Notes under the pieces: generated by a model
Databases searched by the model: none
What the model saw: the letters and a program-made list of their open reading frames with translations, nothing else
What the model was told of the DNA's origin: nothing
Position numbers and translations under genes: made by a program
Source: Adhaeribacter arboris
GTDB lineage: Bacteria > Bacteroidota > Bacteroidia > Cytophagales > Hymenobacteraceae
DNA: 64,000 bases
Reading direction: 5' to 3'
Assembly (NCBI RefSeq): GCF_003023845.1
Contig: NZ_PYFT01000001.1
Coordinates: 124,001 to 188,000 of the forward strand
Part shown: positions 1-12,069 of the stretch, piece after piece
Position numbering within the stretch: position 1 is the first letter of the stretch
How the letters are laid out: each line of letters begins with the position of its first letter

Positions 1-599
1 GAAAAGAGTTTTTGGCACAACTCATTCTTCCGGTTTTAGAAGAACAACAAATTACCCGTTTTTCCTTAATGGCTTTTAGTATGGGCGGCAAATTTGCTTT
101 AGCCTTATTAGAAGCCTTTTCGGATGAAATAGATCAGGTTTTACTTATTGCTCCCGATGGCATTAGCACTAGTTTTTGGTATAACGTGGCTACTTACCCT
201 GGTTGGTTACAAGGTTTATTTAAGCGCACCGTTATTCAACCGGCCCGTTTTTTTAAATTTATTAATTGGCTCGACAGTACCCGGTTAGTTGATCCGGGAT
301 TGACCAAATTTGCTGCTTGGCAAATGAATAGTACCCAAAAAAGATTGCGGGTTTATCGAAGCTGGATGGGCTTTCGGACCCTTACTTTTGATATCCGCAA
401 AATTGTGCGTTTACTAAATAGCCAACAAATAAAATTTATTTTGTTTTTAGGGGAATACGATCAGGTTATTTCCGGCAAAAGATTGCAGGTATTTGCCCGC
501 TCAATTCAAAACTGCCAACTTATTCTTTTAAAAACCGGCCACACTTTTTTGCTGCACGAGGTAGCCTCTTACCTCCGCCGCCATCCAGGAGTTTTTTGA
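1..599 (+). CDS. Alpha/beta hydrolase, C-terminal part (5' truncated by window edge)
   Basis: The frame is open from the first bases of the window, so the true start lies upstream; the TTG at 12 is not a credible start because the fold would lack its first strands. The visible part has a nucleophile elbow AFSMGG near residue 26 (Ser is the likely nucleophile, first Gly of GxSxG replaced by Ala), an acidic loop FLGEYDQ, and a catalytic-His context KTGHTFLLHE near the end. This order matches the alpha/beta hydrolase fold (family knowledge). The substrate cannot be told. It is the last gene before the cassette array and reads in the same direction. Confidence 0.75.
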   Translation, partial: KEFLAQLILPVLEEQQITRFSLMAFSMGGKFALALLEAFSDEIDQVLLIAPDGISTSFWYNVATYPGWLQGLFKRTVIQPARFFKFINWLDSTRLVDPGLTKFAAWQMNSTQKRLRVYRSWMGFRTLTFDIRKIVRLLNSQQIKFILFLGEYDQVISGKRLQVFARSIQNCQLILLKTGHTFLLHEVASYLRRHPGVF

Positions 600-1226
600 A
601 GGGGTGTAAAGTTCCGTACATCTAATTGTTCGATTTTTAATTATGGTAATGGAATTAATTACTTCCTACTGAAACGGATGTTAGAAGAAGGCTTCGTAAA
701 CAGGTGAGGATGCACTCACCGGTATTTTGACTGGTTTCGTATTATTAGAAAACATCAGGCAAAAACTACGGAGCTGTACTAAATAAAGCATTATAGCTTT
801 CTGCAACTTTTCTGTTATTAGGTAAACCGGGTACTTTCTAAATCCATCCTTCCAAGGGCTATTTAGCCGTGTTATAAACGTTTATATCCGTTTATAAACG
901 CTTATTAATACGGATAAGCCTCTTGAGAAGGGTGATCAATACCTAATTGGGGCCTCCATTTTTGCCGCGAAGGCCTTTTCGCCCGCTGAGAAAAAGCAAT
1001 ATCATAGGCAGCTATAAAGGCAAATAAGAGAATGTAGCCCAGTCCGGAGCTGCTCTGGAAACAAAAATGAGTGACTGGCAAGATAATTGGTGAATTTTCT
1101 ATATATTACTTCTAGCATGAACCGAGTAGCTAACACCGCTAAAAAAGCTATTACAAGCCTCATTTAAGCAAGTATACCTACTCCATACATAGTGCCGATA
1201 ACCGGAACGACTCCGTATATCTGCTA
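600..1226. other. Gene-less stretch upstream of the cassette array
   Basis: No convincing ORF on either strand. A nine-base unit TTATAAACG occurs at 872-880 and 892-900 and, with CGTTTATA at 879-886, forms a small inverted repeat. An AGCTAAC box at 1128-1134 followed about 100 bp later by the GTTGTGG core at 1227 could be a decayed attC or the remnant of an attI, but I do not see a clean stem. No integrase gene or fragment was recognised here. Confidence 0.5.
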
Positions 1227-1242
1227 GTTGTGGTACATTAAA

Positions 1243-1674
1243 ATGACAGAAGAACAAAAATATTTACCTTCCGAAATCATAAATAAGTCAACTTTAAACA
1301 GTCACGAATATGGCTGGAAAAGAAAAGATTTTAAAGAAGTTGTAGACTACGCTGTAAAAGCTGGACTTGGAGTAGTAGGTGGACAAGTTCAGTTTATGTT
1401 TCCTGATGGAACGTGTGAACTGTACTGGCACAAGTATGATACGAAAGAAAAACTAGCAGGTGAAAGTTGGTTAAGTTACTGTGAAAGAACTAAACAGGAA
1501 TGTCTTGAGCAGTTTGAAGCTCTACCTAATAACCTAAGGTTAATAGAAGAAGGAATAGAAAAATTTAGGTTCTTAAGAGAGAAATCTGAACAAGGAGTAG
1601 AACTTGAAAACTACTTGATATTCATTCTTTACTTTGATAACTCTGAAACAGAGATAGCTAAAAAGGAAAAATAA
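1243..1674 (+). CDS. Cassette 1 protein, unknown function (143 aa)
   Basis: The ATG at 1243 is chosen over the in-frame TTG at 1228 because the TTG lies inside the GTTGTGG recombination core and the ATG follows the A-rich ACATTAAA context seen before several cassette genes. The protein is soluble, acidic, without signal peptide or membrane segment. It starts MTEEQKYLPSEI and has an aromatic stretch FMFPDGTCELYWHKYD around residues 55-70, then a helical, Glu/Lys-rich C-terminal half. I do not recognise a family. It is flanked by matching cores, GTTGTGG before and CCACAAC after (7/7), so it is a complete cassette. Confidence 0.7.
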   Translation: MTEEQKYLPSEIINKSTLNSHEYGWKRKDFKEVVDYAVKAGLGVVGGQVQFMFPDGTCELYWHKYDTKEKLAGESWLSYCERTKQECLEQFEALPNNLRLIEEGIEKFRFLREKSEQGVELENYLIFILYFDNSETEIAKKEK

Positions 1675-1679
1675 CGATA

Positions 1680-1733
1680 CCACAACAACACCTTTACGGT
1701 AGCTACGCCACCGCAAAGCCCAGAACGTTGGGG
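1680..1733 (+). other. attC1 (cassette 1)
   Basis: Inverse core CCACAAC at 1680-1686 pairs perfectly with the GTTGTGG core in front of cassette 1 (1227-1233). Inner arms CTTTACGG / CCGCAAAG form the stem. The site closes with core GTTGGGG at 1727-1733, which opens cassette 2. Same shape class as attC11. Confidence 0.8.
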
Positions 1734-1743
1734 CACATTAAAA

Positions 1744-2202
1744 ATGATAGAAATTGATACACATAAAGTTTCATTAAAGTTTTTTGACTTTGACTGTCCA
1801 CCAGATGAGTTGACAAAAGAACTTGGCCTCGAACCGACTAGGACAGCCTTGAAAGGTCAGGAATATTACATTGGACCAGAAAACAAGAGAGTTAAAAAGA
1901 CTTGGAAATGGAATTTCTGGGAACATCAAATTACTATAGTAGAAAAAGACGTTTGGATTGGCGACCTAATAGATAACTATATAGACAAGGTTTTTCAACC
2001 AAGGCAAGAGAATATAAAAAAAATAACATCTAAATGTCGGTCTGAATTTTCAATAGTACAGTACCTCTATGATGGTTGTAATCCAGGACTGCACTTTAAA
2101 AATAACAGGTTAAAAATCATTGCGGACATAGGAGCAGAAATTGATATTGATATTTATATGCTCGGAAGTGAACAGATTGAAAATAAAGAAAAGGAAGAAT
2201 AA
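1744..2202 (+). CDS. Cassette 2: DUF4279-like protein (152 aa)
   Basis: The N-terminal part (residues about 7-40) reads as a beta strand followed by CPPDELTKELGLEPTRT and a KGQEYYIGPENK segment. This matches my memory of DUF4279, whose signature is a strand, then xxPxELTxxLGLxPTxxxxKG. DUF4279 is a family of unknown role found as a stand-alone protein and in toxin-immunity neighbourhoods. No signal peptide or membrane segment, so cytoplasmic. The C-terminal half (residues about 70-150) is less typical and ends in a charged EQIENKEKEE tail. The gene lies within the best core pair of the array (GTTGGGGC before, GCCCCAAC after). Family call moderate, function unknown. Confidence 0.75.
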   Translation: MIEIDTHKVSLKFFDFDCPPDELTKELGLEPTRTALKGQEYYIGPENKRVKKTWKWNFWEHQITIVEKDVWIGDLIDNYIDKVFQPRQENIKKITSKCRSEFSIVQYLYDGCNPGLHFKNNRLKIIADIGAEIDIDIYMLGSEQIENKEKEE

Positions 2203-2206
2203 CGAG

Positions 2207-2270
2207 CCCCAACACAATGTATACCAAACCCTGCTTCGCAGCGGGCTTGGCATACACGCGGCCGTTAAGG
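2207..2270 (+). other. attC2 (cassette 2)
   Basis: Inverse core CCCCAAC at 2207-2213 is the exact complement of GTTGGGG before cassette 2 (8/8 including the next base). The stem TGTATACCAA / TTGGCATACA encloses a CTGCTTCGCAG tip. Core GTTAAGG at 2264-2270 opens cassette 3. Shares its stem sequence with attC6, attC12 and attC13. Confidence 0.88.
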
Positions 2271-2772
2271 CGTAATAGGAAAAATTTGGGCTGGGAAGGA
2301 GTGGCTAAACAACTGAAATATAGCCATAAAAGCAAAAAATTAGGAGTTTCAACCCGTCTTTGACAGCTAGGTCAAAGAAGAAAAAACAGGAAAAAAGACC
2401 GGATTAAAACCGTTTTTAAGGAAGGTATTTTACCTGTTTTTGGTACTTGTTAAAATAACAATACCTGGTTGAAACGAATAAAAAATGGCTTTTATTGCCT
2501 GCTAAAAAAAAGTTTAGCCCCGTTTTTACCTCTTTTGGCCAGCCCTTTATGGGTGTTTTATAAAAATAAAGGAGCGGGTGACTTCTCTTAGCCTCGCCTA
2601 AATGAAATCATCCCGCCTTTAGTTTTATTTCTTCATTTTTAGGAAAACGTTTGTTTCTCTTTAAAAAGCAGAGAAACCTAAAGAAGGGGAAAGCGGTAAA
2701 TTTTTCCTACTATAAAGGGTAGTTCTTAAAAAATCAGCTACTTTACCTAAAAAAAGAACTACCCCGCCTAAC
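2264..2772 (+). other. Cassette 3: ORF-less cassette with several hairpins, candidate structured RNA
   Basis: About 500 bp between attC2 and attC3 carry no credible ORF; the longest candidate is a GTG-started 20-codon frame. Instead there are perfect or near-perfect inverted repeats: CTTTGAC / GTCAAAG at 2358-2377, AGGTA / TACCT at 2423-2435 followed by a T-run, GCGGGTGA / TCATCCCGC at 2574-2616, GTTTCTCT / AGAGAAAC at 2653-2677, and GGGTAGTTCTT / AAGAACTACCC at 2717-2764, the last directly before attC3. The core before it (GTTAAGGCG) and the inverse core after it (CGCCTAAC) match if one A is treated as inserted. Non-coding cassettes are known in integrons; that this one makes an RNA is inference. 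Confidence 0.45.
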
Positions 2773-2837
2773 TACACCTAAAAGACACCAAACCCCAGCC
2801 AATTGGACAAGGCGTCTTTTAGCCTTGTTCGTTAGCC
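2766..2837 (+). other. attC3 (cassette 3)
   Basis: Inverse core GCCTAAC at 2766-2772; stem CTAAAAGAC / GTCTTTTAG with a longer loop; core GTTAGCC at 2831-2837 opens cassette 4. Shape class shared with attC15. Confidence 0.75.
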
Positions 2838-2855
2838 ATCATTTAAATTAAAAAA

Positions 2856-3224
2856 ATGGGATTGTTTGACAAGTTGTTCGGAAAACAGAAAGGCAATCAA
2901 GAAGAAAATTTAAAAAATAATGAATCGGAGCACGCTGTCATAATCCACTTCAATTACGGAATAGAAGGACTTGAAGCTTTACACGGATTGGAAGATAAAC
3001 TGGAAAAAGTAATTACCGAAAATAATGTAGGGGATTATGATGGACACGAAATCGCAGTAGATTACAGCGATGGGTTCCTCTACATGTATGGTCCAAATGC
3101 TGAAAATCTATTTAAAGCAGTAAAGCCAATATTAGTAATCACTGACTTTATGAAGGGTGCCAAAGCAAAGTTAAGATTTGGTCCACCATATGACGGTGTA
3201 AAAGAAATTGAAGTAGAGCTATAA
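2856..3224 (+). CDS. Cassette 4 protein, unknown function (122 aa)
   Basis: Begins MGLFDKLFGKQKGNQ, the short amphipathic N-terminus common to many unrelated small Bacteroidota proteins, followed by a polar Glu/Asn linker. Residues about 27-120 form a compact alpha/beta domain with HAVIIHFNYGIEGLEALHGLED and a VDYSDGFLYMYGPNAENLF segment. It ends with alternating charged and hydrophobic residues typical of an edge strand. No signal peptide or membrane helix. The layout resembles small immunity-like proteins, but I cannot name a family. The gene lies between matching cores (GTTAGCCA / TGGCTAAC, 8/8), so the cassette is intact. Confidence 0.7.
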   Translation: MGLFDKLFGKQKGNQEENLKNNESEHAVIIHFNYGIEGLEALHGLEDKLEKVITENNVGDYDGHEIAVDYSDGFLYMYGPNAENLFKAVKPILVITDFMKGAKAKLRFGPPYDGVKEIEVEL

Positions 3225-3233
3225 ATAAACGTT

Positions 3234-3299
3234 GGCTAACACAATGCATAAGTAACCCTTGCTGAAGCTGCGGGCTCCTCATGCACGCGGCCGTTGACA
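3234..3299 (+). other. attC4 (cassette 4)
   Basis: Inverse core GGCTAAC at 3234-3240 complements GTTAGCC before cassette 4. Outer arms ATGCAT / ATGCAC with a GCACGCGGCC segment before core GTTGACA at 3293-3299. Variant of the attC2 class. Confidence 0.82.
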
Positions 3300-3311
3300 A
3301 AAATTTAAGAA

Positions 3312-3704
3312 ATGAAAAAGGAACAATGCCCACTTTGTTATTCAGAACTTGAAGCTATAGAATGCGCTCCTTGTCATGATTGTGGGCACTTACCAATAGA
3401 AATAGAGCATTTTAAAAGTGGAATCCACATCTATAGGATTTATGATGTCTATAAAGGATTAAGGCTTCAATTGTGTGATTTTTGTACTTTAGACTTTGGC
3501 TCTTACCGCTCTGAATATCTTGGATTCGATCATAATAAAAGACTAGGATTTGATCAGTTTAACTTTGTTCAGGAATTAACTACTCCGGATTTGGAAAAGG
3601 ATAAATATTGCCCTGATTGCGCTAAAAGATTAAAGTTTTTAAATTTTATACATAATTTGAGAGAGTTAATAGAAAAAGAAAAAACAATTGCCAACCAAAC
3701 CTAA
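3312..3704 (+). CDS. Cassette 5: zinc-ribbon-like protein (130 aa)
   Basis: Four cysteine pairs are visible: CPLC at residues 6-9, CAPCHDCGH at about 17-25, CDFC at about 56-59 and CPDC at about 98-101. This spacing suggests two zinc ribbons or knuckles (structural zinc, by analogy). The central part has an aromatic GFDHNKRLGFDQFNF stretch. The role is unknown. The last five codons overlap the inverse core box of attC5 (TGCCAAC at 3689-3695) and the stop TAA is inside the attC palindrome, so the recombination site encodes the C-terminal ANQT. The 5' core GTTGACA and inverse core TGCCAAC differ at one position. Confidence 0.7.
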   Translation: MKKEQCPLCYSELEAIECAPCHDCGHLPIEIEHFKSGIHIYRIYDVYKGLRLQLCDFCTLDFGSYRSEYLGFDHNKRLGFDQFNFVQELTTPDLEKDKYCPDCAKRLKFLNFIHNLRELIEKEKTIANQT

Positions 3705-3756
3705 ACGTCAGCCTTCGGCCGAGGGCCTTGCCCGTCGTTTAGCAAGACCGTTGGCA
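3689..3756 (+). other. attC5 (cassette 5), overlapping the gene end
   Basis: Inverse core TGCCAAC at 3689-3695; stem CTAAACG / CGTTTAG around a GC-rich inner hairpin; core GTTGGCA at 3750-3756. One mismatch to its own 5' core (GTTGACA). Confidence 0.8.
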
Positions 3757-3773
3757 GCAATTATTTAAAAACA

Positions 3774-4586
3774 ATGAAACAATTTTTAACCTTATTTCTT
3801 TTATTCAGTTTACTAGTCTCTTGTAACCAAGAAGTAAAAAATAAGAAAATAAACAAAAAGGAAGCAGAAAAAAGAAATAAGGTACAAAGGCCTAATATTA
3901 GCTATAGTAATAAAATATCCACAGGGAAATGGTATTTTCTGCCTTATACAGATTCAACAATCATAAATAAATCCATCTTCAAATATTCTCAATCCTGTGC
4001 AAGCTTTGCCTACATGATTTCATATGATAGCAGCAATCCTGACAGTATCTTTTTTAAAGGTTATCATGAAGAGACAATGATGCCACTTATAAAAAGAAGC
4101 GATACTATTTTTTGGGCAGGAGACACCATACAGCATTGGGAAATTACTTTTAATAATGACTTTTCGTCTCTTCAATTTCAAGAGTATATGGATAAATCTT
4201 ATGCTCACAAAGCAGACCCAAGGCTTTTTCAGTTCGCTAAATCTGTTAAGGAGATTCAAAATTTAGCCATTTACTTTAACAAGTTCATTTTGGCAGGTGC
4301 TTATAAAAATGAACAAAGTAAAGTGAGATTTACTGATAAGTTTGAAGTAGTTGGTATTGATAATGCAGCAACCTATGAATTAGTAATTGATTTTTGGGAA
4401 ATGGTTCCACAAATGGACCTTATAAACTTATTTGACAAGAAAGGGGAATTATTAAAACAATTAAACTGGGAATATGATGGTGAGATTCTAAAACTTAGAA
4501 ATGTAAGACAGATTTATGATAAGGATGGAGACTTTGATAGAGGTGTAGCAGAAGATATAATTTATGAACTCAAAAAAATAAAATAA
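3774..4586 (+). CDS. Cassette 6: lipoprotein of unknown function (270 aa)
   Basis: A type II signal peptide MKQFLTLFLLFSLLVSC ends at Cys17 (lipobox LVSC), so the mature protein is probably a lipid-anchored envelope protein. After a Lys-rich linker (NKKINKKEAEKRNK) comes a beta-rich body of about 220 residues with many aromatic residues (GKWYFLPYTD; TIFWAGDTIQHWEITFNNDF; VIDFWEMVPQ). I do not recognise the family. Cores match perfectly: GTTGGCAG before, CTGCCAAC after (8/8). Base composition is A+T-rich like the other cassettes. Confidence 0.75.
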   Translation: MKQFLTLFLLFSLLVSCNQEVKNKKINKKEAEKRNKVQRPNISYSNKISTGKWYFLPYTDSTIINKSIFKYSQSCASFAYMISYDSSNPDSIFFKGYHEETMMPLIKRSDTIFWAGDTIQHWEITFNNDFSSLQFQEYMDKSYAHKADPRLFQFAKSVKEIQNLAIYFNKFILAGAYKNEQSKVRFTDKFEVVGIDNAATYELVIDFWEMVPQMDLINLFDKKGELLKQLNWEYDGEILKLRNVRQIYDKDGDFDRGVAEDIIYELKKIK

Positions 4587-4590
4587 CTTC

Positions 4591-4656
4591 TGCCAACACC
4601 GTGTATACCAAAACCATGCTTCGCTATGATCTTGGCATGCACGAGGCCCGTTAGGG
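4591..4656 (+). other. attC6 (cassette 6)
   Basis: Inverse core TGCCAAC at 4591-4597 complements GTTGGCA before cassette 6. Stem GTGTATACCAA / CTTGGCATGCAC of the attC2 class. Core GTTAGGG at 4650-4656 opens cassette 7. Confidence 0.87.
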
Positions 4657-4670
4657 GTAATTATAGAAAA

Positions 4671-5228
4671 ATGGATAAAGAACAGAGACGGAAACTTAGT
4701 CAAGAATACAAAAGAAAAGACTTAGAAAAGTATCTTGAATCCGGCAATTCTATTTTGGTGAATTATGCTAAAGTCAAATTGGGCTTAAACTCAAAACTAT
4801 TAAAAAGCACGGATATTTTTAAAATTCCTGACGAGCAGTTGATAGAAGTCTTGAATGATAAAATCGAGGAAACTGCAGAAAAAACTTATAGAGAAAACCC
4901 ACAACTGCACAAAAGCAGTGAGAACGTTTTAAAGAGTTTTCCAAGCTCTTACCGACTTGTTTATTATACCAGGCAATTTGAAATGCTTACGGACTTAGGA
5001 GATGGTGATAAGTTTTTTGAAAATACCCCAAAGGAAGAAATAGAGATTGTCGCAGAAAGTTACGATTTGATTGGGTTTAAGAGCTTTAGCAGCCTGATTA
5101 GAGAAGTTTCTAAAAATAACCAAAAGTTAGAGTTGGTTGAAAATGAGTATGCTGTTCTTAAAATAACCATCGATAAATCAAGAATTGAGTTTATAAGAAA
5201 AAACGCATTGCAGTTTGAAATAAAATAA
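4671..5228 (+). CDS. Cassette 7: DUF4375 (DMP19-like) protein (185 aa)
   Basis: The start at 4671 (MDKEQRRKLSQEY) is preferred over upstream in-frame codons because those lie in attC6. Residues about 90-145 read YRLVYYTRQFEMLTDLGDGDKFFENTP followed by an EIVAESYDLIGFKSFSSLI helix pair. This is the helical pattern I associate with DUF4375/DMP19, whose members carry a conserved GG-FxQFF-N motif; here it is degenerate (GDGDKFFEN). Members are often found as immunity-like proteins next to toxins. Cytoplasmic, no signal. Cores match over 9 bp (GTTAGGGGT / ACCCCTAAC). Family call moderate, function not known. Confidence 0.72.
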   Translation: MDKEQRRKLSQEYKRKDLEKYLESGNSILVNYAKVKLGLNSKLLKSTDIFKIPDEQLIEVLNDKIEETAEKTYRENPQLHKSSENVLKSFPSSYRLVYYTRQFEMLTDLGDGDKFFENTPKEEIEIVAESYDLIGFKSFSSLIREVSKNNQKLELVENEYAVLKITIDKSRIEFIRKNALQFEIK

Positions 5229-5232
5229 CAAC

Positions 5233-5299
5233 CCCTAACAAGGTGTAAACGGCATCTTCGGCCGACGGCCTCGCCGCCGCTTACACGAGACCGTTAGCG
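5233..5299 (+). other. attC7 (cassette 7)
   Basis: Inverse core CCCTAAC at 5233-5239 complements GTTAGGG before cassette 7. Arms TGTAAACGGC / GCCGCTTACA with an inner TCGGCCGACGGCC hairpin. Core GTTAGCG at 5293-5299. Confidence 0.87.
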
Positions 5300-5338
5300 G
5301 TAATACAAAGAATAAAATATCCTAATTAAGGGAAAGTA

Positions 5339-5797
5339 ATGAGTAACAACTTTGTGAATCCATTTAAAGAATTTGGAAGCAGTATAATTCCAATTTCAGC
5401 AGACTTTCCTTACAACCTAAACAATCTTTTAAATAGGTTTGAAATAAAATTATGTAATTCAAAAGTTGAATTAGGGAATAAACCATCTTGGATTGAATGG
5501 AATAATTATTCCAAGCATTATTCTTTCTTCTATGATTTTGATGAAAATGAAGAAGTTATAAAAAAATACTTTCAAAACTCAGTACTTAGGAATTACGATA
5601 ATGTATTAATGGACTTTGGATATCAGATTCCGCTTTCAAAAATTCCTGTAGATATCTTTATTAATTATTGGTACGAGTTTGTCATTTTAGCTGGTTATGA
5701 GTCCGTAGTAATTACAGAAGATGGAAAATTATTTATGGAATTTATTAGACGTAGCTACTATCTCAAAAGTAACTTTCAAATTAATCCTAATAGTTAA
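5339..5797 (+). CDS. Cassette 8 protein, unknown function (152 aa)
   Basis: The start ATG at 5339 is preceded by AAGGGAAAG, one of the few Shine-Dalgarno-like sequences in the array. The protein is soluble with no signal peptide. It is rich in aromatic residues (KPSWIEWNNYSKHYSFFYDFDENEE around residues 48-72) and has a C-terminal VDIFINYWYEFVILAGYESVV region (about 108-130). The size and composition fit an immunity-type protein, but no family is recognised. Cores match over 9 bp (GTTAGCGGT / ACCGCTAAC). Confidence 0.7.
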   Translation: MSNNFVNPFKEFGSSIIPISADFPYNLNNLLNRFEIKLCNSKVELGNKPSWIEWNNYSKHYSFFYDFDENEEVIKKYFQNSVLRNYDNVLMDFGYQIPLSKIPVDIFINYWYEFVILAGYESVVITEDGKLFMEFIRRSYYLKSNFQINPNS

Positions 5798-5814
5798 TTT
5801 AAAAATAATACTAC

Positions 5815-5867
5815 CGCTAACCACACCTATACGTCAGCTTCGCCGCCGTTTAGGTACTGTGTTAAAA
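5815..5867 (+). other. attC8 (cassette 8), at the IS110 junction
   Basis: Inverse core CGCTAAC at 5815-5821 complements GTTAGCG before cassette 8. Arms ACCTATACG / CGTTTAGGT; core GTTAAAA at 5861-5867. The last ten bases before the core, TAGGTACTGT (5851-5860), recur at 7041-7050 on the far side of the transposase gene. Confidence 0.75.
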
Positions 5868-7177
5868 GTCAAGTTTATTTTAACAAATTTAGGAAGATGT
5901 CAATTTTTAAATTGCCTCTATCCTGTGCAGCAAGGGCTTGGGCTCTTGCTGTTTTTTTTCAAACTGCGGATTATAGTACTCATTTTTCTTGTACAAACTG
6001 TACATGAGCAGCAGTAGTTTTCGCTGTACGGCTACTAGAGCTATTATAGGCTTTGCTTTGTTGGGCTTGAGTCGGTTGTAAAACTGCTTCAAGGTAGGAT
6101 TGACTCGCACTGCCGTCATGGAAGGCATATGGAGTATGCTCCGGAGATGGCTATTTCCTTTCTTGCTTATTTTGGTGCTGCCTCGGAAGGTGCCGGATTC
6201 CTTAAGCACTACATCATAGCCGGCATAGCTTGCCAGTTGTTTAGCACTGGTGATCTCCTTAAAGCCGCAAGTCTCTCCAACCACTGTTGCCGCTGAGAGG
6301 AAAGATATTCCCGGTATGCTTTCCAGGTACTGGATTTTTTTACCCAGAGCTGCATCCCCGTCTACCAAATCCTTCATCTCCGCTTCAATCTCCTGCAATT
6401 GTACCTCCACCAACTTCAGCCGCTTGGCCTGGCGCTTCACTTCCTTTGGGTTGCTGTAAGCAGAAGTTTCTATGGCGTGTAGCCGGTTTTTCTCTACGTT
6501 CTTTTCCTTCAGTAAAAAGGAGCGCTCTCGGCTCAGGGCTTTCAGGTGCCGCAACGTCTTATCCGGCGGAGACCATGGTGTTAATTTCCGCTCACAACCC
6601 AACATTGCCAACATTCTACAGTCTAAAGCATCGGTCTTAGAACGCTGGCTCAGGCTTTGAGCGTAGCGCTTTACTCTGCCGGATTGCATCACACTGACGG
6701 TATATCCTTTCTCATGCAGGTACACTGCTAGTGCCTCATGGTATACACCGGTTGCTTCCATTACCACCACTAGCTTCTGCGGGTGAACAGAGAGCTTGAC
6801 TAGCCATTTTTCCATTCTTTGGAAGCCTTTGTCATCATTGCTCACGTCGGAGCCTGCTATAAACTGCTTTTCCAAATCCTGGGTCAGGGTGCCCAAACAA
6901 AGGGAAAGAGAATCTTTGGCCACATCTATTCCGAGGGCCTGCTTTAGTACGGGTGGTTCCATAGGCTAATTTTTCTTCAAACCAGCTAACTCTCTTCTTC
7001 GCTTTTGCTCGCTTTTGATTCGGTCTCCTCCAAATGGACCTAGGTACTGTTCAAGCTCTAAGAAAGTGGATAGAAGGGCGGAAATTCTATGCGGCGACAT
7101 CATCTATATGTATCTGGCCAAGTACACCCTATCCCTTCTATCTGGTTTGTTTTGTCAGTAATTTATTTATTTTTAAC
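5861..7177. mobile_element. IS110-family element occupying cassette 9 (bounds uncertain)
   Basis: The unit between attC8 and attC9 opens with core GTTAAAA (5861) and closes with inverse core TTTTAAC (7171-7177), a 7/7 match, so it behaves as a cassette; its only gene is an IS110 transposase on the minus strand. The element ends cannot be fixed: IS110 elements lack terminal inverted repeats. A ten-base direct repeat TAGGTACTGT lies at 5851-5860 and 7041-7050. The roughly 200 bp of non-coding DNA 5' of the transposase (6963-7170) is where IS110-group elements carry their guide (bridge) RNA, known from the family; presence here is inference. Confidence 0.55.
5907..6962 (-). CDS. IS110-family transposase (351 aa)
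   Basis: The N-terminal DEDD RuvC-like domain is visible: Asp13 in GIDVAK, Glu69 in VMEATG, Asp111 and Asp114 in KTDALDC. The C-terminal Transposase_20 domain follows a coiled segment (about 150-205): IPGISFLSAATVVGE near 217-230, LASYAGYD near 243-250, and GNSHLRSILHMPSMTAVR near 269-286, where Ser281 is in the position of the catalytic serine of IS110 recombinases. Length and motif order fit a full, probably active enzyme. It is the only minus-strand gene in the array. IS110/IS1111 relatives that target attC sites are known, which fits its place here. Confidence 0.93.
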   Translation of the reverse strand: MEPPVLKQALGIDVAKDSLSLCLGTLTQDLEKQFIAGSDVSNDDKGFQRMEKWLVKLSVHPQKLVVVMEATGVYHEALAVYLHEKGYTVSVMQSGRVKRYAQSLSQRSKTDALDCRMLAMLGCERKLTPWSPPDKTLRHLKALSRERSFLLKEKNVEKNRLHAIETSAYSNPKEVKRQAKRLKLVEVQLQEIEAEMKDLVDGDAALGKKIQYLESIPGISFLSAATVVGETCGFKEITSAKQLASYAGYDVVLKESGTFRGSTKISKKGNSHLRSILHMPSMTAVRVNPTLKQFYNRLKPNKAKPIIALVAVQRKLLLLMYSLYKKNEYYNPQFEKKQQEPKPLLHRIEAI

Positions 7178-7223
7178 CTACGTTCGATAGCAAATGCTAA
7201 CATACGAGCCAAGTACGTTGGGC
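7171..7223 (+). other. attC9 (cassette 9)
   Basis: Inverse core TTTTAAC at 7171-7177 complements GTTAAAA at 5861. Short stem TAGCA / TGCTA around 7187-7199; core GTTGGGC at 7217-7223 opens cassette 10. The weakest palindrome of the set; an alternative is that it is a scar of the IS110 insertion. Confidence 0.5.
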
Positions 7224-7242
7224 AACATTTATAATCAGCATT

Positions 7243-7848
7243 ATGACTAAAATTCGAAACACTGGAATCATCATTGTTTTTTTACTGTGTTCATGTAAAT
7301 CGGATTCAACAAGTTACACATCTATAAAATTCGGAGGATATAATTTGAAAATTAGACTTCCGAATCAATTTAAATCCGCAAGCCCAAAAGAAACCAAAGC
7401 CCTTTATGAAGATGGCAGTAAAATAATTAAGGATAATGGCTATCCGAGTGATTTAAATCAAACTAGCCTGTTGTTTTTAAATAAAGGAGAGTTCAGTTCT
7501 TTAAAAATTAAATATTCTCCCATTGATAAAGAAGTTATCCAAGATTATAAAAATCAGTAGAAAATTTTAAATAACATGACATTTGCCATACTTACAAAAG
7601 AAAAAATGCCTGAAGCCACATTAGATTCAATATCACGAATAGAAAAAATCAATGGTAGAGATTTCTATGTTTATGAAACAGATATTAAGTTTTTAGATTT
7701 AAATAAGAATAAAACTATTTTTAAATCTGTAAGATATAGTACGCCTTTAATAAATTCAGATTTTGTAATAAATGCGACATACGTCAATCGAATAGATGAA
7801 AAAGAAATTATGGAAGCAATTAAAAGTGTAGAAATTAGTAGTAAATAA
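7243..7848 (+). pseudogene. Cassette 10: lipoprotein gene with an in-frame amber stop
   Basis: The first part (7243-7560) encodes a lipoprotein start MTKIRNTGIIIVFLLCSCKSD (lipobox LLCSC) and about 80 further residues, ending at TAG after DYKNQ. The same frame reopens at once and continues KILNNMTFAILTKEKMPEA to the TAA at 7848, with no frameshift: 7243 and 7576 are in phase. Read through, it would be one 201-residue exported protein. The second half alone (ATG at 7576) lacks a signal peptide, so one gene broken by a nonsense change is the best reading; two genes or stop readthrough are alternatives. Function not recognised. Cores GTTGGGC / GCCCAAC match 7/7. Confidence 0.7.
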
Positions 7849-7853
7849 ACGTC

Positions 7854-7984
7854 GCCCAACACTGCATAATGTGCCATAGCTGGCTTTCTGCACTAAAGAC
7901 ATTTCTCAGGTTAGGGAAATGTGCGTCCTTGCTCCTACATTTTTACTACATTGCCGCAACGGCAATTATGCGATACCGTTGCCT
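7854..7984 (+). other. attC10 (cassette 10), long form of about 131 bp
   Basis: Inverse core GCCCAAC at 7854-7860 complements GTTGGGC before cassette 10. Outer arms TGCATAAT / ATTATGCGA enclose a long middle part that includes TTGCCG / CGGCAA (7951-7965). Core GTTGCCT at 7978-7984 opens cassette 11. Twice the length of its neighbours but within the known attC range. Confidence 0.7.
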
Positions 7985-8002
7985 GTAAGTTTATTAGTAA
8001 AA

Positions 8003-8281
8003 ATGACCAAAGAAGAAGATAATTGGAATAAAGTAAAAGGTAAATTCAAAATTGGAGATGAAGTTGAAGGGGTAGTTGTCCATAAAGCCCCATTTGGTGA
8101 TTTCATCAATATAGGAGTGGAATTTCTTGTCTTATTAGAAATCATCGTAATGAAGGATTTAACTCCAGAAAAATATAGGGAAGGATTGTATAACCCTATA
8201 GGCTCTAAAGTTAAAGCATACATTGTTTCATTTGAGGATTCAAGTAAACAAATCAGATTAGCCCAAAAGCAGCTAGATTAA
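8003..8281 (+). CDS. Cassette 11: single S1-domain RNA-binding protein (92 aa)
   Basis: The ATG at 8003 (MTKEEDNWNKVKGKF) is chosen because earlier in-frame codons lie inside attC10. Residues about 10-90 form one S1 (OB-fold) domain: FKIGDEVEGVVVHKAPFGDFINIGVEFLVLL, then an insertion with LTPEKYREGLYNPIGSKVKAYIVSFEDSSKQIRLAQKQL, which matches the GxxVxxxVxxxxxxGxxVxL..GxxVxxxVxxxDxxxxxIxLS pattern of S1 proteins. S1 domains bind single-stranded RNA; a one-domain cassette protein may act on translation or RNA decay (inference). Cores match 8/8 (GTTGCCTG / CAGGCAAC). Confidence 0.82.
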   Translation: MTKEEDNWNKVKGKFKIGDEVEGVVVHKAPFGDFINIGVEFLVLLEIIVMKDLTPEKYREGLYNPIGSKVKAYIVSFEDSSKQIRLAQKQLD

Positions 8282-8305
8282 AAAGGTGGAAAATGAAAAA
8301 CCTTC

Positions 8306-8359
8306 AGGCAACAAGACCTTCACGACAGCTAAGCCGCCGCAAAGCCAAGAACGTTAGCC
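8306..8359 (+). other. attC11 (cassette 11)
   Basis: Inverse core AGGCAAC at 8306-8312 complements GTTGCCT before cassette 11. Arms CTTCACG / CCGCAAAG with AGCTAAG in the loop, like attC1. Core GTTAGCC at 8353-8359. Confidence 0.82.
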
Positions 8360-8382
8360 ACAATTAAAAATAGGAATAATCA

Positions 8383-8886
8383 ATGGACAAGAACCTATAT
8401 TTACAAGAAATGGAAAACCTTATTAATAAGGCAATTGATAAGATGAAGTCCAATGATGCTTTTAAAATATATACAGCTAGTATCTGGACCGACCCAAACG
8501 CAGCGGCAAGTTCCATTTCATTTGACTCTGAAGAAAATTCAATTCTTAAAGTAAAGAGTTCTGATGAATTTCTTAAGAAGCATTATGACAGATTGATTGC
8601 AAAAGGTGAATTTGAAGAAGCACAATCATTTTTACCTGAAACAAGAAGAAATACCAATCCAGCAGATTTTGAATTGAGGGATTTAGTAGAGATTTCAAAT
8701 TTATCCTTCCCCATAAATTGGGAAGAAGAATCAGACGGCGCCTGTTGGAATGAACTTGAGCCACTTTTATTGAAAATTGGGGAACAAACCTTTCACAGAC
8801 TTCAAGAATTAAATCTTCACCAAGAATTTAAATTAGCAGTGAACGGGCCAGAAGATTGGTACGAACATATTTGGAAAAAAGAATAA
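8383..8886 (+). CDS. Cassette 12: DUF4303-like protein (167 aa)
   Basis: Soluble protein with an N-terminal helix (LQEMENLINKAIDKMKS), a strand pair FKIYTASIWTDPNAAASSISFDSEENS at about 27-53, and a C-terminal helical region with FPINWEEESDGACWNEL and LNLHQEFKLAVNGPEDW. The overall order (helix, YxxxI/xTDx strands, NTEE-like turn, W-rich C-terminus) recalls DUF4303, a family found in polymorphic-toxin immunity contexts. The match is weak and by eye. Cytoplasmic. Cores match over 9 bp (GTTAGCCAC / GTGGCTAAC), so it is an intact cassette. Confidence 0.65.
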   Translation: MDKNLYLQEMENLINKAIDKMKSNDAFKIYTASIWTDPNAAASSISFDSEENSILKVKSSDEFLKKHYDRLIAKGEFEEAQSFLPETRRNTNPADFELRDLVEISNLSFPINWEEESDGACWNELEPLLLKIGEQTFHRLQELNLHQEFKLAVNGPEDWYEHIWKKE

Positions 8887-8890
8887 CAGT

Positions 8891-8956
8891 GGCTAACACC
8901 ATGTATACCAAACCCTCGCTTCGCTTCAAGCTTGGCATACACGCGGCCCGTTATGC
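8891..8956 (+). other. attC12 (cassette 12)
   Basis: Inverse core GGCTAAC at 8891-8897 complements GTTAGCC before cassette 12. Stem TGTATACCAA / TTGGCATACA identical in type to attC2. Core GTTATGC at 8950-8956. Confidence 0.88.
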
Positions 8957-8984
8957 CCAATTATAAAACATTTATATACTCTTA

Positions 8985-9614
8985 ATGAAAACAGTTTATT
9001 TTTCGCTCATTATTCTACTTTTTTCTTCTCAATCGATTTTAGCTCAGAAAAGTAAACCATTAAATCCTAAAGGAATTTATTCCGAAATTAAGGTAGCTAA
9101 GCAGAATAAAATGATCCAGGAGCTTATTGATACTAAAACAAGTGCTAGCTCGATCGAAACAATATTCAATAATATAAACCAGTATAATCCTCCAGTCTTG
9201 TATGTCTTTTCCCAAGCCTTGTTTGTTAACGGAGAATTACAAACAGGTATTGACTGGTATTTATTTGCTCAACTAAATGCTTTATATGATGCTAATCGGT
9301 GTTCTGATAAAACGGCAAGACAAGCAACAACTATTTTAGAATCTAAATTTAGGCCCGCTTATGAGGATTATATTAAATCAAATAAACAGGCATACCTTGA
9401 AAGTATAGACAAAGTAGTTATGCTATTTAATAAAATCCCGCAGGACTATGATATAAGATGGATTAATCTTCATGGAATGGATGCAGTTACTACTTCACTA
9501 AGTGACGAAAAAGAAAATAAAAATGATTTAAGTTTACCTAAAGAGTCTTGGCCTGAAATAAAAGAAAAAACAATTGGGCAATTTATTGAGGCAAATAGAA
9601 ATAGTGTTAAATAA
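8985..9614 (+). CDS. Cassette 13: secreted protein of unknown function (209 aa)
   Basis: A Sec signal peptide MKTVYFSLIILLFSSQSILAQ with an AxA-like site (ILAQ) precedes a mostly helical mature protein. Visible segments are NKMIQELIDTKTSASSIETIFNN, YNPPVLYVFSQALFVNGEL and TGIDWYLFAQLNALYDANRCSDKTARQ; the last resembles helix pairs of Sel1/TPR-like proteins with a Cys, but no family is certain. Likely periplasmic. The cores match over 9 bp (GTTATGCCC / GGGCATAAC), the strongest unusual pair in the array because GTTATGC departs from the usual GTTRRRY. Confidence 0.75.
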   Translation: MKTVYFSLIILLFSSQSILAQKSKPLNPKGIYSEIKVAKQNKMIQELIDTKTSASSIETIFNNINQYNPPVLYVFSQALFVNGELQTGIDWYLFAQLNALYDANRCSDKTARQATTILESKFRPAYEDYIKSNKQAYLESIDKVVMLFNKIPQDYDIRWINLHGMDAVTTSLSDEKENKNDLSLPKESWPEIKEKTIGQFIEANRNSVK

Positions 9615-9622
9615 ATAACTGG

Positions 9623-9688
9623 GCATAACACAATGTATAAAAAACCCTTGCTTCGCAGCAGGCTTTTCATACACGCGGCCCGTTAGCG
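9623..9688 (+). other. attC13 (cassette 13)
   Basis: Inverse core GCATAAC at 9623-9629 complements GTTATGC before cassette 13. Stem TGTATAAAAAACC / GGCTTTTCATACA, tip TTGCTTCGCAGCA. Core GTTAGCG at 9682-9688. Confidence 0.87.
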
Positions 9689-9701
9689 GTAAATCATAAT
9701 A

Positions 9702-10295
9702 ATGAAAAACAAAGGATTCTCCACTTGTATAATATTCATTGCCGCAGTCCTATTTTCCTGCAACTCAAGTCTATTAGGCAAAAAGGTAGATAAGCTTGAT
9801 TGGATGCATTCAGAGCCGAATTATGATAGTCTGCAAATGGAAAACAGAAGGATTGGTAAAAATTATCTAGTTGTTGATAGCTCTTATAATTCTGACTTTA
9901 ACTATAATTTGCTAAATGCAATGGACAGCCTAATTGAAGCTTCCAGAAAATGGCCTGACGCAGAAAGGTTTTTCCTACCAGTAGCTGGTAAATATAAATA
10001 TTATAGGTTTAAGGCAAGGTTCAAGGGCGTTTCTTACGACAACTCACTCAAGGATTTCAATGACATACTAATAATTAAAACGGATAGTGTAAACACCATT
10101 ATCGACGCTTATCAATACACTTTAGAATGGGCAGAGTACCCTTTCACGACCGATTTGTACAGGATTTCAAATAAAGGAGAGCGGTTAGTAGATAAATTGA
10201 ATGTGGATTCACTTGAGATGAAGAAAATCGCAGATTATGAAAATGGAAAGTTGCTGGATGATAAGGGTATTATTTACCTAAAACCTAAGAAATAG
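9702..10295 (+). CDS. Cassette 14: lipoprotein of unknown function (197 aa)
   Basis: The signal peptide MKNKGFSTCIIFIAAVLFSC ends in lipobox LFSC at Cys20, giving a lipid-anchored envelope protein. The mature part is beta-rich with many Tyr and Asp: NYLVVDSSYNSDFNYNLLNAMDSLI, FFLPVAGKYKYYRFKARF and a SLKDFNDILIIKTDSVNTIIDAYQYTLEW region. No family recognised. The 5' core GTTAGCG and inverse core CGCTTAC differ at one position, and that difference hits the AAC triplet (TAC), so excision of this cassette may be impaired (inference). Confidence 0.73.
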   Translation: MKNKGFSTCIIFIAAVLFSCNSSLLGKKVDKLDWMHSEPNYDSLQMENRRIGKNYLVVDSSYNSDFNYNLLNAMDSLIEASRKWPDAERFFLPVAGKYKYYRFKARFKGVSYDNSLKDFNDILIIKTDSVNTIIDAYQYTLEWAEYPFTTDLYRISNKGERLVDKLNVDSLEMKKIADYENGKLLDDKGIIYLKPKK

Positions 10296-10307
10296 AAAAA
10301 AATCTAC

Positions 10308-10375
10308 CGCTTACATTGTATAAAAATTATGCTACGGCCGACGGCCTTGCACGTTTTTTATACTACCCGTTAGAT
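10308..10375 (+). other. attC14 (cassette 14), inverse core mutated
   Basis: Inverse core CGCTTAC at 10308-10314 lacks the canonical AAC. Arms TGTATAAAAA / TTTTTTATAC are well kept. Core GTTAGAT at 10369-10375. Confidence 0.72.
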
Positions 10376-10408
10376 GTAAGTAGCATTTAAAATTGTGCTT
10401 CAATAAAG

Positions 10409-10753
10409 ATGAAAAATCAAAAGAAATCATCACCCTTAGAAGTAGTGTGTACTTTCCTGATTTTAGGTGTACTGTTTACTGGTTTGTTTTTATTTATCAG
10501 TAACAGAAGAAAACAAAAGTTTCAATCAATTAAGCAGGAGTCAGGTATTACACAAGGAATTGTGACTTCAATAAAAGTTTACAAAGGTCGTTCAATCACT
10601 GTAAGGTATAAAGTTTCTGGAAATATTTACGAAGAAAGCGATGGTCTTGACGCTCAAGATAATGTTAATAAATGGGATAGTGTAACAATCAAATATTCAA
10701 TTGCAAAACCTGAATTAATGATTACAGAATTTAATGAAGAATTCTATAAATAG
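10409..10753 (+). CDS. Cassette 15: single-span membrane protein (114 aa)
   Basis: Short positively charged N-terminus (MKNQKKSSPLE), one transmembrane helix (VVCTFLILGVLFTGLFLFIS, residues about 12-31), then a basic stop (NRRKQK) and a small beta domain of about 75 residues: GITQGIVTSIKVYKGRSITVRYKVSGNIYEE and a VTIKYSIAKPELMI strand. This looks like DUF3592-type proteins, which share the beta pattern ITVRYxVxGxxY. Probable inner-membrane anchored with the soluble domain outside or inside (not decidable). Last gene of the array. Its two cores (GTTAGAT, ACTTAAC) pair poorly, so one neighbour may have been lost. Confidence 0.72.
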   Translation: MKNQKKSSPLEVVCTFLILGVLFTGLFLFISNRRKQKFQSIKQESGITQGIVTSIKVYKGRSITVRYKVSGNIYEESDGLDAQDNVNKWDSVTIKYSIAKPELMITEFNEEFYK

Positions 10754-10765
10754 AAATATACCAGC

Positions 10766-10818
10766 ACTTAACCACACCTAAAAAGCACAAACGCACTTTT
10801 TAGCTAAGAACGTTAAGA
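10766..10818 (+). other. attC15 (last site of the array)
   Basis: Inverse core ACTTAAC at 10766-10772; stem CTAAAAAG / CTTTTTAG; terminal core GTTAAGA at 10812-10818. Beyond it no further cassette is seen and the next gene is on the opposite strand. Confidence 0.72.
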
Positions 10819-10893
10819 ACACGCGATTCGTATAAGTTTAGTTAGTTAAATTTTCTGACTCGCCACTTGTCCTTCTTAAATCATCTATCCTGA

Positions 10894-11418
10894 TTAATTA
10901 GCCGATTGCCAAGCCATGCGTTGAAACAAAAAGTAACGACCGTTAATTTTTAAGGCTTCAAAACGGAGGGGGAAAGATTGGTTCGTGCGGGTAGAAAGCG
11001 TAGCGGTCACCGGAATCATGGCTTTATTTTTAGCGCTGTTGGTGCCCGTTCGTACATCGGCTAAAGTAAGCTCGGTTAAATTCAGCGTTTTACTAATGCC
11101 TTCCCGAATTACCGTTTCAAACGATTCCTTCAAACTGCTGGTAATAGCTTCGGAGGTTAATCCTTCCAAAACCGCCAACATATCTTCCGAGGCTTGTTTT
11201 TTTAAGGTTGCTAATTCCGTATCGGTGGGTACGTAAAGCGGGAGTTGTTCAAAGTCGTTCGCCTGAACCGCCGTAAAAACCACATTTGCTAACTCGTTAA
11301 CGGTAGCGGTGCCGCGTTCGGCGGGTATATTGGGTAAGGATGAAGATAATGGATTTGAGGCCAAAGACCAAACTTGAGTAAAAAGGACCAAGGCAAAAAC
11401 AAAAAATAATCTTTTCAT
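10894..11418 (-). CDS. Exported protein of unknown function (174 aa)
   Basis: A Sec signal peptide (MKRLFFVFALVLFTQVWSLAS) precedes a small alpha/beta domain. Residues about 40-75 (NELANVVFTAVQANDFEQLPLYVP) look like the start of an NTF2-like or DUF4878-type fold, and the C-terminus FPLRFEALKINGRYFLFQRMAW fits the last strands of that fold. This is inference from pattern only. It is convergent with the cassette array and ends 76 bp after the terminal core, marking the chromosomal side of the junction; its codon use looks like the rest of the chromosome and not like the cassettes. Confidence 0.75.
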   Translation of the reverse strand: MKRLFFVFALVLFTQVWSLASNPLSSSLPNIPAERGTATVNELANVVFTAVQANDFEQLPLYVPTDTELATLKKQASEDMLAVLEGLTSEAITSSLKESFETVIREGISKTLNLTELTLADVRTGTNSAKNKAMIPVTATLSTRTNQSFPLRFEALKINGRYFLFQRMAWQSAN

Positions 11419-11525
11419 AAGGCTTCACAGGTTGGTGGTAAGTAAGTAGTATATACGGCTAGAATGAATATTAAAGTTCTTTCTGCTGATCTAAATATTT
11501 CTAAGGCAGAATAGCGCGTAATATT

Positions 11526-11533
11526 TACTTTTG
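11526..11533 (+). promoter_or_regulatory. Possible -7 element TACTTTTG upstream of the rim operon
   Basis: Fits the Bacteroidota -7 consensus TAnnTTTG, 78 bp before the first ATG. I find no good TTTG at the -33 spacing, so the call is weak. Confidence 0.3.
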
Positions 11534-11610
11534 CCGTAGAAAAGCTCGGTTAAAACTATTAACGGTTACGTTAGATTACTCGTACGGGATATTTTGAATA
11601 AACAGGAAAT

Positions 11611-12069
11611 ATGCTTTTAAAAACGAAAAAAAGAATTGTGGGCCGCCGCGAGTTAATTCATTTGCCGGCTTTAGAACTTTTTAGCGTAGAAGCTAAAATT
11701 GATACCGGCGCTTTTACTTCGGCTATTCATTGCACCGATATCCGGGAAACAACCTTACCCGATGGTACCCCGGTAATCCGGTTTAATTTATTAGATCCTT
11801 CGCATCCCAAGTATCACCATAAAATATTTGAGTTTACGCAATTCTCGTTGCGCGACATTAAAAATTCTTTCGGCGACGTCCAGGAACGCTACGTTATCCG
11901 GACGCCGATTCAGCTTTTTGATAAAATTCTGGAAGCCGATCTTTCTCTTTCCGATCGAAGAGATATGAAGTACCCCATTTTAATTGGCCGGGCGGTATTA
12001 CAGAAAAATTTTATCGTGGATGTAGCCCGTAAAAATGTAGCCGCCAAAACAAAACATAAAAACAGGTAA
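11611..12069 (+). CDS. RimB/RloA-type retropepsin-like zinc protease (152 aa)
   Basis: The aspartic-protease-like loop [12 protein letters not shown] (residues about 28-39) is the hallmark of the PF05618 family (RloA/RimB, often annotated ATP-dependent zinc protease), and the C-terminal [18 protein letters not shown] is the conserved second lobe motif. Length fits a single-domain member. In Pseudomonas and Shewanella these proteins are encoded with rimK and trim or regulate glutamate tails (family knowledge). Here the gene is 10 bp upstream of rimK and clearly in operon with it. Cytoplasmic. Confidence 0.9.

Follow-up and report, generated by a model that had tools for sequence, protein, structure and literature searches.

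Introduction

The closest described relatives of the element considered here are the sedentary chromosomal integrons, in which an array of mostly single-gene cassettes begins at an attI site, the cassettes are joined at attC sites with G/TT cores whose R'', L'', L' and R' boxes pair into hairpins, and movement as circles is implied. The element itself is a cassette array at positions 1227-10818 of a 64,000-nt stretch of DNA from Adhaeribacter arboris, a member of the Hymenobacteraceae. This whole stretch, which we call the window, corresponds to positions 124001-188000 of contig C1 of the source genome (G000; 7.25 Mb, two contigs). The array shares all of the traits just named and, judged by its sequence, is an integron in its anatomy and in the history of its cassettes. 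However, the system differs from classical integrons in two features, and in both together: its candidate integrase lies outside IntI and lacks the I2 insert, and its attC sites mostly lack the extrahelical base of the L box. It also differs in that the candidate integrase gene points toward its array, whereas IntI arrays of the phylum are mainly divergent (62 versus 6 sites), and in that many attI-like platforms are dispersed over a single genome.

An initial annotation of this DNA called a long array in this phylum, with no intI in the window, unusual. Published listings of integrons already include Bacteroidota (PMC8618304, PMC9668308), so the phylum by itself is not the surprise; PMC9024848 gives one complete integron in Bacteroidetes proper, that of Salinibacter ruber M1, besides those of Chlorobi and Ignavibacteriae. 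According to PMC7790495, it was the acquisition of I2 that made integron integrases capable of single-strand recombination, intermediates being lacking, and the available text of PMC8138268 describes an integron-like subgroup of tyrosine recombinases whose insertion-less members are not tied to attC arrays. By current usage the window array would be a CALIN (cluster of attC sites lacking integron integrases; at least two attC and no intI nearby), given its 14 attC and the lack of any recombinase match in the window, and one of the listed origins of such clusters is an IntI encoded at some other place in the genome (PMC8618304). Unlike a CALIN, the array has an attI-like site, as well as cassettes in common with an array that belongs to another kind of recombinase. 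Our search of the open-licence literature, judged mostly by titles and the beginnings of abstracts, found no description of integrons of this type.

Based on the observations outlined below, we posit that the window holds an integron cassette array that is probably one of ~14 dispersed attI-like platforms, filled in trans by a single recombinase that we call rec A.

Cassettes that moved as circles

In a cassette carried on a circle, the sequence just after the GTT is expected to be complementary to the sequence just ahead of that cassette's AAC. In the window, 71 of 84 such positions match (six positions in each of 14 units), against a permutation mean of 33.8 and a maximum of 60 in 200,000 permutations. 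Compared with the start of its own unit, the R'' box agrees at a mean of 5.07 of six positions; compared with the start of the next unit, it agrees at 3.0 (13 pairs). This closure on the cassette's own arm indicates that the cassettes travelled as circles, with cuts at G/TT, circularizing and inserting there as integron cassettes do.

Within the attC, R'' pairs with R' and L'' with L'. The bottom-strand folds of 13 of the 14 window attC (the one broken by an insertion sequence, or IS, is excluded) have z scores of -4.3 to +0.35, with 7 of 13 below -2. A covariance model, R2, built on 87 sites of which 7 come from the window, recovers 12 of the 14 at E<=0.5, the IS-broken site at E=0.079 only, and at that threshold misses 7852-7985, which has a long loop, and 10764-10819. 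In related arrays, 167 and 190 sites were detected without the covariance model. A model of six window sites found related sites in 8 of 8 genomes of the genus (E<=1), and a widened model gave 85 attC in 24 clusters within the fetched stretches of G000, with a single strand per cluster, once four opposite-strand duplicates had been removed by hand. The genome attC searches scored first-look candidates in part, and their counts may therefore be lower bounds.

The closure and the folds bear out the initial annotation in its view of an integron-type array with these limits, G/TT cores and palindromes. Its count of fifteen units needs correcting, in that there are 14 cassettes and the extra unit is an IS110-family element inserted into the attC of the eighth (reading of 1-11800). 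Its description of one small gene per unit holds for most cassettes, although u3 has no evident gene and the cassette at 7217-7977 has two open reading frames (ORFs). The cores lie at 1227, 1727, 2264, 2831, 3293, 3750, 4650, 5293, 7217, 7978, 8353, 8950, 9682 and 10369, with the last core at 10812, and the units are as follows.

1227-1726, plus strand: cassette u1, ORF of 143-148 aa; attC 1678-1734
1727-2263, plus strand: cassette u2, 152 aa, DUF4279; attC 2205-2271
2264-2830, plus strand: cassette u3, no evident gene; attC 2764-2838
2831-3292, plus strand: cassette u4, 122 aa; attC 3232-3300
3293-3749, plus strand: cassette u5, 130 aa; attC 3687-3757
3750-4649, plus strand: cassette u6, 270 aa; attC 4589-4657
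4650-5292, plus strand: cassette u7, 185 aa, weak DMP19 match under its cut-off; attC 5231-5300
5293-7216, plus strand: cassette u8, 152 aa; attC broken by the IS110-family element (broken attC 5813-5868)
5907-6962, minus strand: IS110-family transposase, 351 aa, with DEDD_Tnp_IS110 and Transposase_20 matches
7217-7977, plus strand: two-ORF cassette, 105 and 90 aa; attC 7852-7985
7978-8352, plus strand: cassette u11, 92-120 aa, S1 RNA-binding domain; attC 8304-8360
8353-8949, plus strand: cassette u12, 167 aa; attC 8889-8957
8950-9681, plus strand: cassette u13, 209 aa; attC 9621-9689
9682-10368, plus strand: cassette u14, 197 aa; attC 10305-10376
10369-10811, plus strand: cassette u15, 114 aa; attC 10764-10819, the array end

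Among 15 proteins tested (14 cassette ORFs and the transposase), the Pfam cut-off is passed only by the DUF4279, S1-domain and transposase proteins, and an Rfam scan of the window gave nothing at gathering scores. The sequence AGGTACTGT is present on each flank of the IS110-family element (~5851 and ~7042), near its likely ends.

A candidate integrase elsewhere on the contig

The window contains no integrase, as first annotated: a tblastn search with rec A against 1-12000 gave just one 23-residue chance match, and two recombinase searches placed no match in the window. Rec A itself is a 480-aa tyrosine recombinase encoded at C1:6676229-6677665, directly ahead of its own attI and array and on the same strand, 6.5 Mb from the window along the contig, or ~0.5 Mb should the 7.04-Mb contig close into a circle. 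Its named relatives are from Hymenobacteraceae (Pontibacter, Rufibacter and Adhaeribacter), in keeping with the Bacteroidota host that had been proposed from the letters of the window.

Catalytic residues are present in 13 of 13 aligned rec A members, while the N-terminal ~200 aa have no Pfam match. The best NCBIfam model for rec A is that of XerA (NF040815; 208 bits, cut-off 220), and TIGR02249 gives 201 bits (cut-off 265). The spacing between the Lys motif and HxLRH is 64-65 residues in 28 of 28 rec A-clade rows, 106-108 in 11 of 13 IntI rows (of the other two, L202 was mis-measured and the IntI of genome G004 had no match). It is 68-73 in the 10 Xer measured and 62 in the 5 XerA from archaea. 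Rec A is thus like archaeal XerA in its best model and in a close spacing (62 versus 64), but it differs in its clade and in its ~200-aa N-terminal extension. In the alignment to VchIntIA, chain residues 208-249, an insert of ~42 residues with the I2 helix, are absent from rec A, which therefore lacks the I2/patch III insert of an IntI. The residues of VchIntIA reported to read the extrahelical bases are P232, H240 and H241, and K209, Y210 and W219 (PMC3053210); the stretch missing from rec A covers those reported for T12'' and most of those reported for G20''.

In a tree of 58 rows, IntI form a single clade (support 100/99), and rec A falls outside it, in a clade separate from archaeal XerA; 27 Bacteroidota and Balneolota rows join at 90/88 only. 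On this alignment and tree, rec A is placed in a clade of Xer/XerA-like recombinases, mostly from Bacteroidota, that keep the catalytic residues and have no I2 insert. Two side observations concern the same proteins. At locus L068 (4226-4820), the N-terminal part of rec A resembles two similar units of ~70 aa (LYLNPLEHQGK.. and VRLIPLLHQGK..), and L188 holds an I2-less Bacteroidales recombinase that is sister to IntI (96/91), with a 9-nt closure behind the gene.

Dispersed platforms and shared cassettes

The initial annotation placed the platform of the array to its left and considered it missing. The side was right, but the platform is there, as an attI-like site with flanking sequence found at other loci:

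1183-1229, plus strand: attI-like site, with a CATAGTGC box, an imperfect inverted repeat (CCGGAAC..TCCG) and then TA|GTT
1075-1223, plus strand: shared platform sequence; by blastn of upstream flanks, 88.6% over 149 bp to the locus at C1:374567 and 78.1% over 169 bp to that at 2836673

An identical attI-like sequence stands behind rec A, at C1:6677790-6677817, and at the start of the window array. In G000 the attI-like pattern has 14 copies at <=3 mismatches, compared with 0 for the pattern read backwards, and in 12 of the 14 an attC on the correct strand follows within 1.4 kb; this does not fit the non-integron alternative raised with the initial annotation, in which the palindromes would be dispersed singly outside cassettes. 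The ~80-170 bp common to several copies suggest that the platforms themselves have spread. Upstream of two of them (L056, 1618-3150, and L051), ~1.5 kb of sequence is 90% alike and encodes a 510-aa transposase-like gene. The idea that this stretch is an integrase relic was rejected, since the common 1.5 kb carries the transposase-like gene.

Arrays at different platforms also have cassettes in common. Copies identical from core to core are found for u1 (500/500) and u13 (732/732) in the rec A array at 6.678 Mb of the same contig; u6 has copies of 99.9% and 99.7% (900/900) at two further loci, and u2 has a 94.4% copy (537/537) in the array at 2.84 Mb. For u3, the rec A array has copies of 99.6% and 95.8% identity, and the array at 2.84 Mb has one of 99.5%; the matches at 99% do not include the first 4 bases of the cassette. 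Identity of 100% between arrays makes the movement look recent, and the core-to-core sharing supports a distant integrase acting in trans, one of the origins that the initial annotation had offered.

The layout of recombinase gene, attI and array recurs in relatives. In Hymenobacteraceae, the rec A stop codon is followed by a box of the CATAGTGC type, in many species an inverted repeat, and TA|GTT, with the GTT ~120-200 nt on; in Flavobacteriaceae, the distance from stop to GTT is shorter. Overall, the attI-like site lies ~25-200 nt behind the recombinase gene, as it does in integrons; in the window, the site is present but the gene is not. Many Hymenobacteraceae loci also show a (C)TATATTAGC-like motif ~10 nt after the rec A stop, perhaps a cassette promoter. 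When the best closure from any GTT in the first 250 nt is taken, it reaches at least 8 nt at 44 of 50 recombinase loci versus 113 of 500 shuffles. Among relatives from the class and phylum, picked from a phylum search (20 loci fetched, one too short), closures of at least 9 nt that mark the recombinase-attI-cassette layout occur at 16 of 19 loci versus 22 of 190 shuffles. A scan from the first GTT was rejected, having given 28% chance hits, and was replaced by this best-GTT scan.

The shape of attC follows the integrase

Stem shapes were compared with one detector for both groups of arrays, independent of the covariance model. In rec A-clade arrays (attC from 25 of 26 loci), 190 attC comprise 127 unbulged, 6 L''-bulged, 8 L'-bulged and 49 ambiguous sites, so that the extrahelical base of the L stem, a feature of integrons, is rare there (6 versus 127 of 190). 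A first set of IntI arrays (attC from 8 of 16 loci) gave 37 attC, of which 20 are L''-bulged, 2 unbulged and 15 ambiguous. For IntI arrays of the same phylum, with divergent sites in 13 of 20 loci, the divergent side has 62 attC (40 L''-bulged, 3 L'-bulged, 0 unbulged, 19 ambiguous), and the co-directional side has 6 (2, 1, 1 and 2, respectively). The I2-less loci of the class and phylum (17 examined; 3 of 20 omitted for a short downstream stretch) yield 28 attC, with 18 unbulged, 0 L''-bulged, 1 L'-bulged and 9 ambiguous. A Fisher test of I2-less against phylum IntI stems gives p=3.6e-35, for sites that are not independent. These counts by integrase group indicate that attC shape follows integrase type. 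The right spacer also exceeds the left by a mean of 2.64 nt in rec A attC and 1.28 nt in IntI attC.

Which strand is folded? Of the T.G mismatches in the stems of rec A-clade arrays, 56 lie on the bottom strand and 10 on the top, suggesting that it is the bottom strand that folds. A first IntI control, which counted both strands, was uninformative on strand bias and was replaced by the count on the divergent side. The bias bears on a different account of rec A, namely that it is an integrase of double-stranded sites, at which the palindromes merely place recombinase protomers. Such a reading would suit the lack of I2, the rarity of the L-box bulge, the inverted repeats at attI in part of the clade and the even wobble counts in a wider set of arrays. 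It does not sit well with a 56-to-10 bias that extends over arrays of Hymenobacteraceae and Flavobacteriaceae and over several stem positions, and we regard it as unlikely.

Co-occurrence across genomes

In 80 genomes of the family, attC (E<=0.001) are found in 49, that is, in every sampled genome of four genera and in none of two. Rec A (E<=1e-50) is found in 47 genomes: 45 of the 49 with attC and 2 of the 31 without, where the homologues are partial (46-48% identity, residues 208-480 only). All 19 rec A loci carry attC among the 20 stretches fetched; the 20th is a distant homologue from an attC-free genome and has none. XerD (E<=1e-60) is present in 80 of 80. This last count, together with the kinship among tyrosine recombinases, is what might recommend the host XerC/XerD as the movers of the cassettes, as proposed for pdif modules. 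Such modules carry 28-bp XerC/XerD sites at their junctions. The sites seen here are hairpins whose core is G/TT, the 31 attC-free genomes have XerD no less than the others, and it is rec A rather than Xer that tracks attC and sits at attI. We consider a role for XerC/XerD very improbable, although no search aimed at pdif sites was made.

IntI (E<=1e-60) is found in only 2 of the 80 genomes, and both copies are degenerate. The initial annotation had suggested looking for intI elsewhere in the genome, and there is one in G000 above the TIGR02249 cut-off (C1:1659408-1660301; L009 / L017-L018), 1.47 Mb from the window, but it has an in-frame TAG. The G004 IntI (L019) keeps an open frame, but in its HxxR and LLGH motifs the conserved His is replaced. 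No attC were found in 40 kb around the former or in 20 kb around the latter. In these two species of the genus, the vestigial IntI adjoins the same kind of hydrolase gene. Could the arrays then be relics, built in an ancestor by a classical IntI that has since decayed, with rec A an unrelated neighbor? Two IntI that still pass the family cut-off would be its remnants. Against this stand the empty surroundings of both genes, the disparity between IntI in 2 of 80 genomes and attC in 49 of 80, the recent look of cassettes that are 100% identical between arrays, and attC stems of another shape than in the IntI arrays of the phylum. Taken together, these points leave a relic CALIN quite doubtful.

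At the level of the phylum, 69 of 198 genomes have a member of the rec A family (E<=1e-75) and 58 have IntI (E<=1e-70); this search takes in distant branches of the rec A family, with integron linkage shown for only some. It lists 49 genomes that share the class, order or family of the window; rec A family members are found in 32 of these and IntI in 2 (G000 and G116).

Proposed mechanism and its weighing

In our model, rec A would excise and insert cassettes as circles via the bottom-strand hairpins of attC, cutting at G/TT. Its partner would be attI, which in part of the clade has its own inverted repeat at a distance of 5-7 nt from the crossover point. With both I2 and the L-box extrahelical base missing, the polarity of the sites would have to be set by another feature, and we speculate that this is the asymmetric central spacer.

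Several observations weigh against this model. Rec A at E<=1e-50 is absent from 4 of the 49 attC-bearing genomes (G004, G007, G042 and G057), and the 80 genomes are related, so the co-occurrence comes close to a contrast between genera (four with and two without). No bias of wobbles toward the bottom strand shows in the wider I2-less set (6 versus 5) or in phylum IntI (2 versus 3), and in the first IntI set the bias is not significant (8 versus 2). Because the attC detectors require arms and stems to be complementary, the counts are of passing sites and possibly include chance ones; likewise, the closure scans sometimes scored a GTT other than that of attI (e.g., at L068). The inverted repeat of the window attI is imperfect (p 0.18), and among 63 attI sites the repeat is significant in 22 only, 18 of them at 5-7 nt from the GTT. 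The repeat was therefore rejected as a general rule and is regarded as a trait of only some members of the clade.

Implications

On our best reading, what is new here appears to be an integron lineage with a different, I2-less integrase; the occurrence of integrons in the phylum was already known. More broadly, we lean toward the view that a class of integrons is widespread in Bacteroidia that has neither I2 nor the extrahelical base that I2 reads, and in which one integrase feeds many dispersed attI. Such a class would either stand between Xer-like recombinases and IntI, as the intermediate that has been missing, or represent a second way of capturing cassettes as single strands. Searches keyed to IntI would class arrays of this kind as integrase-less, and integrons in Bacteroidia may therefore be undercounted. 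The dispersed platforms would be a natural example of many sites in a genome being served by a single integrase. If functional, I2-less integrons would change the account of I2 acquisition in PMC7790495 and would allow a direct test of it.

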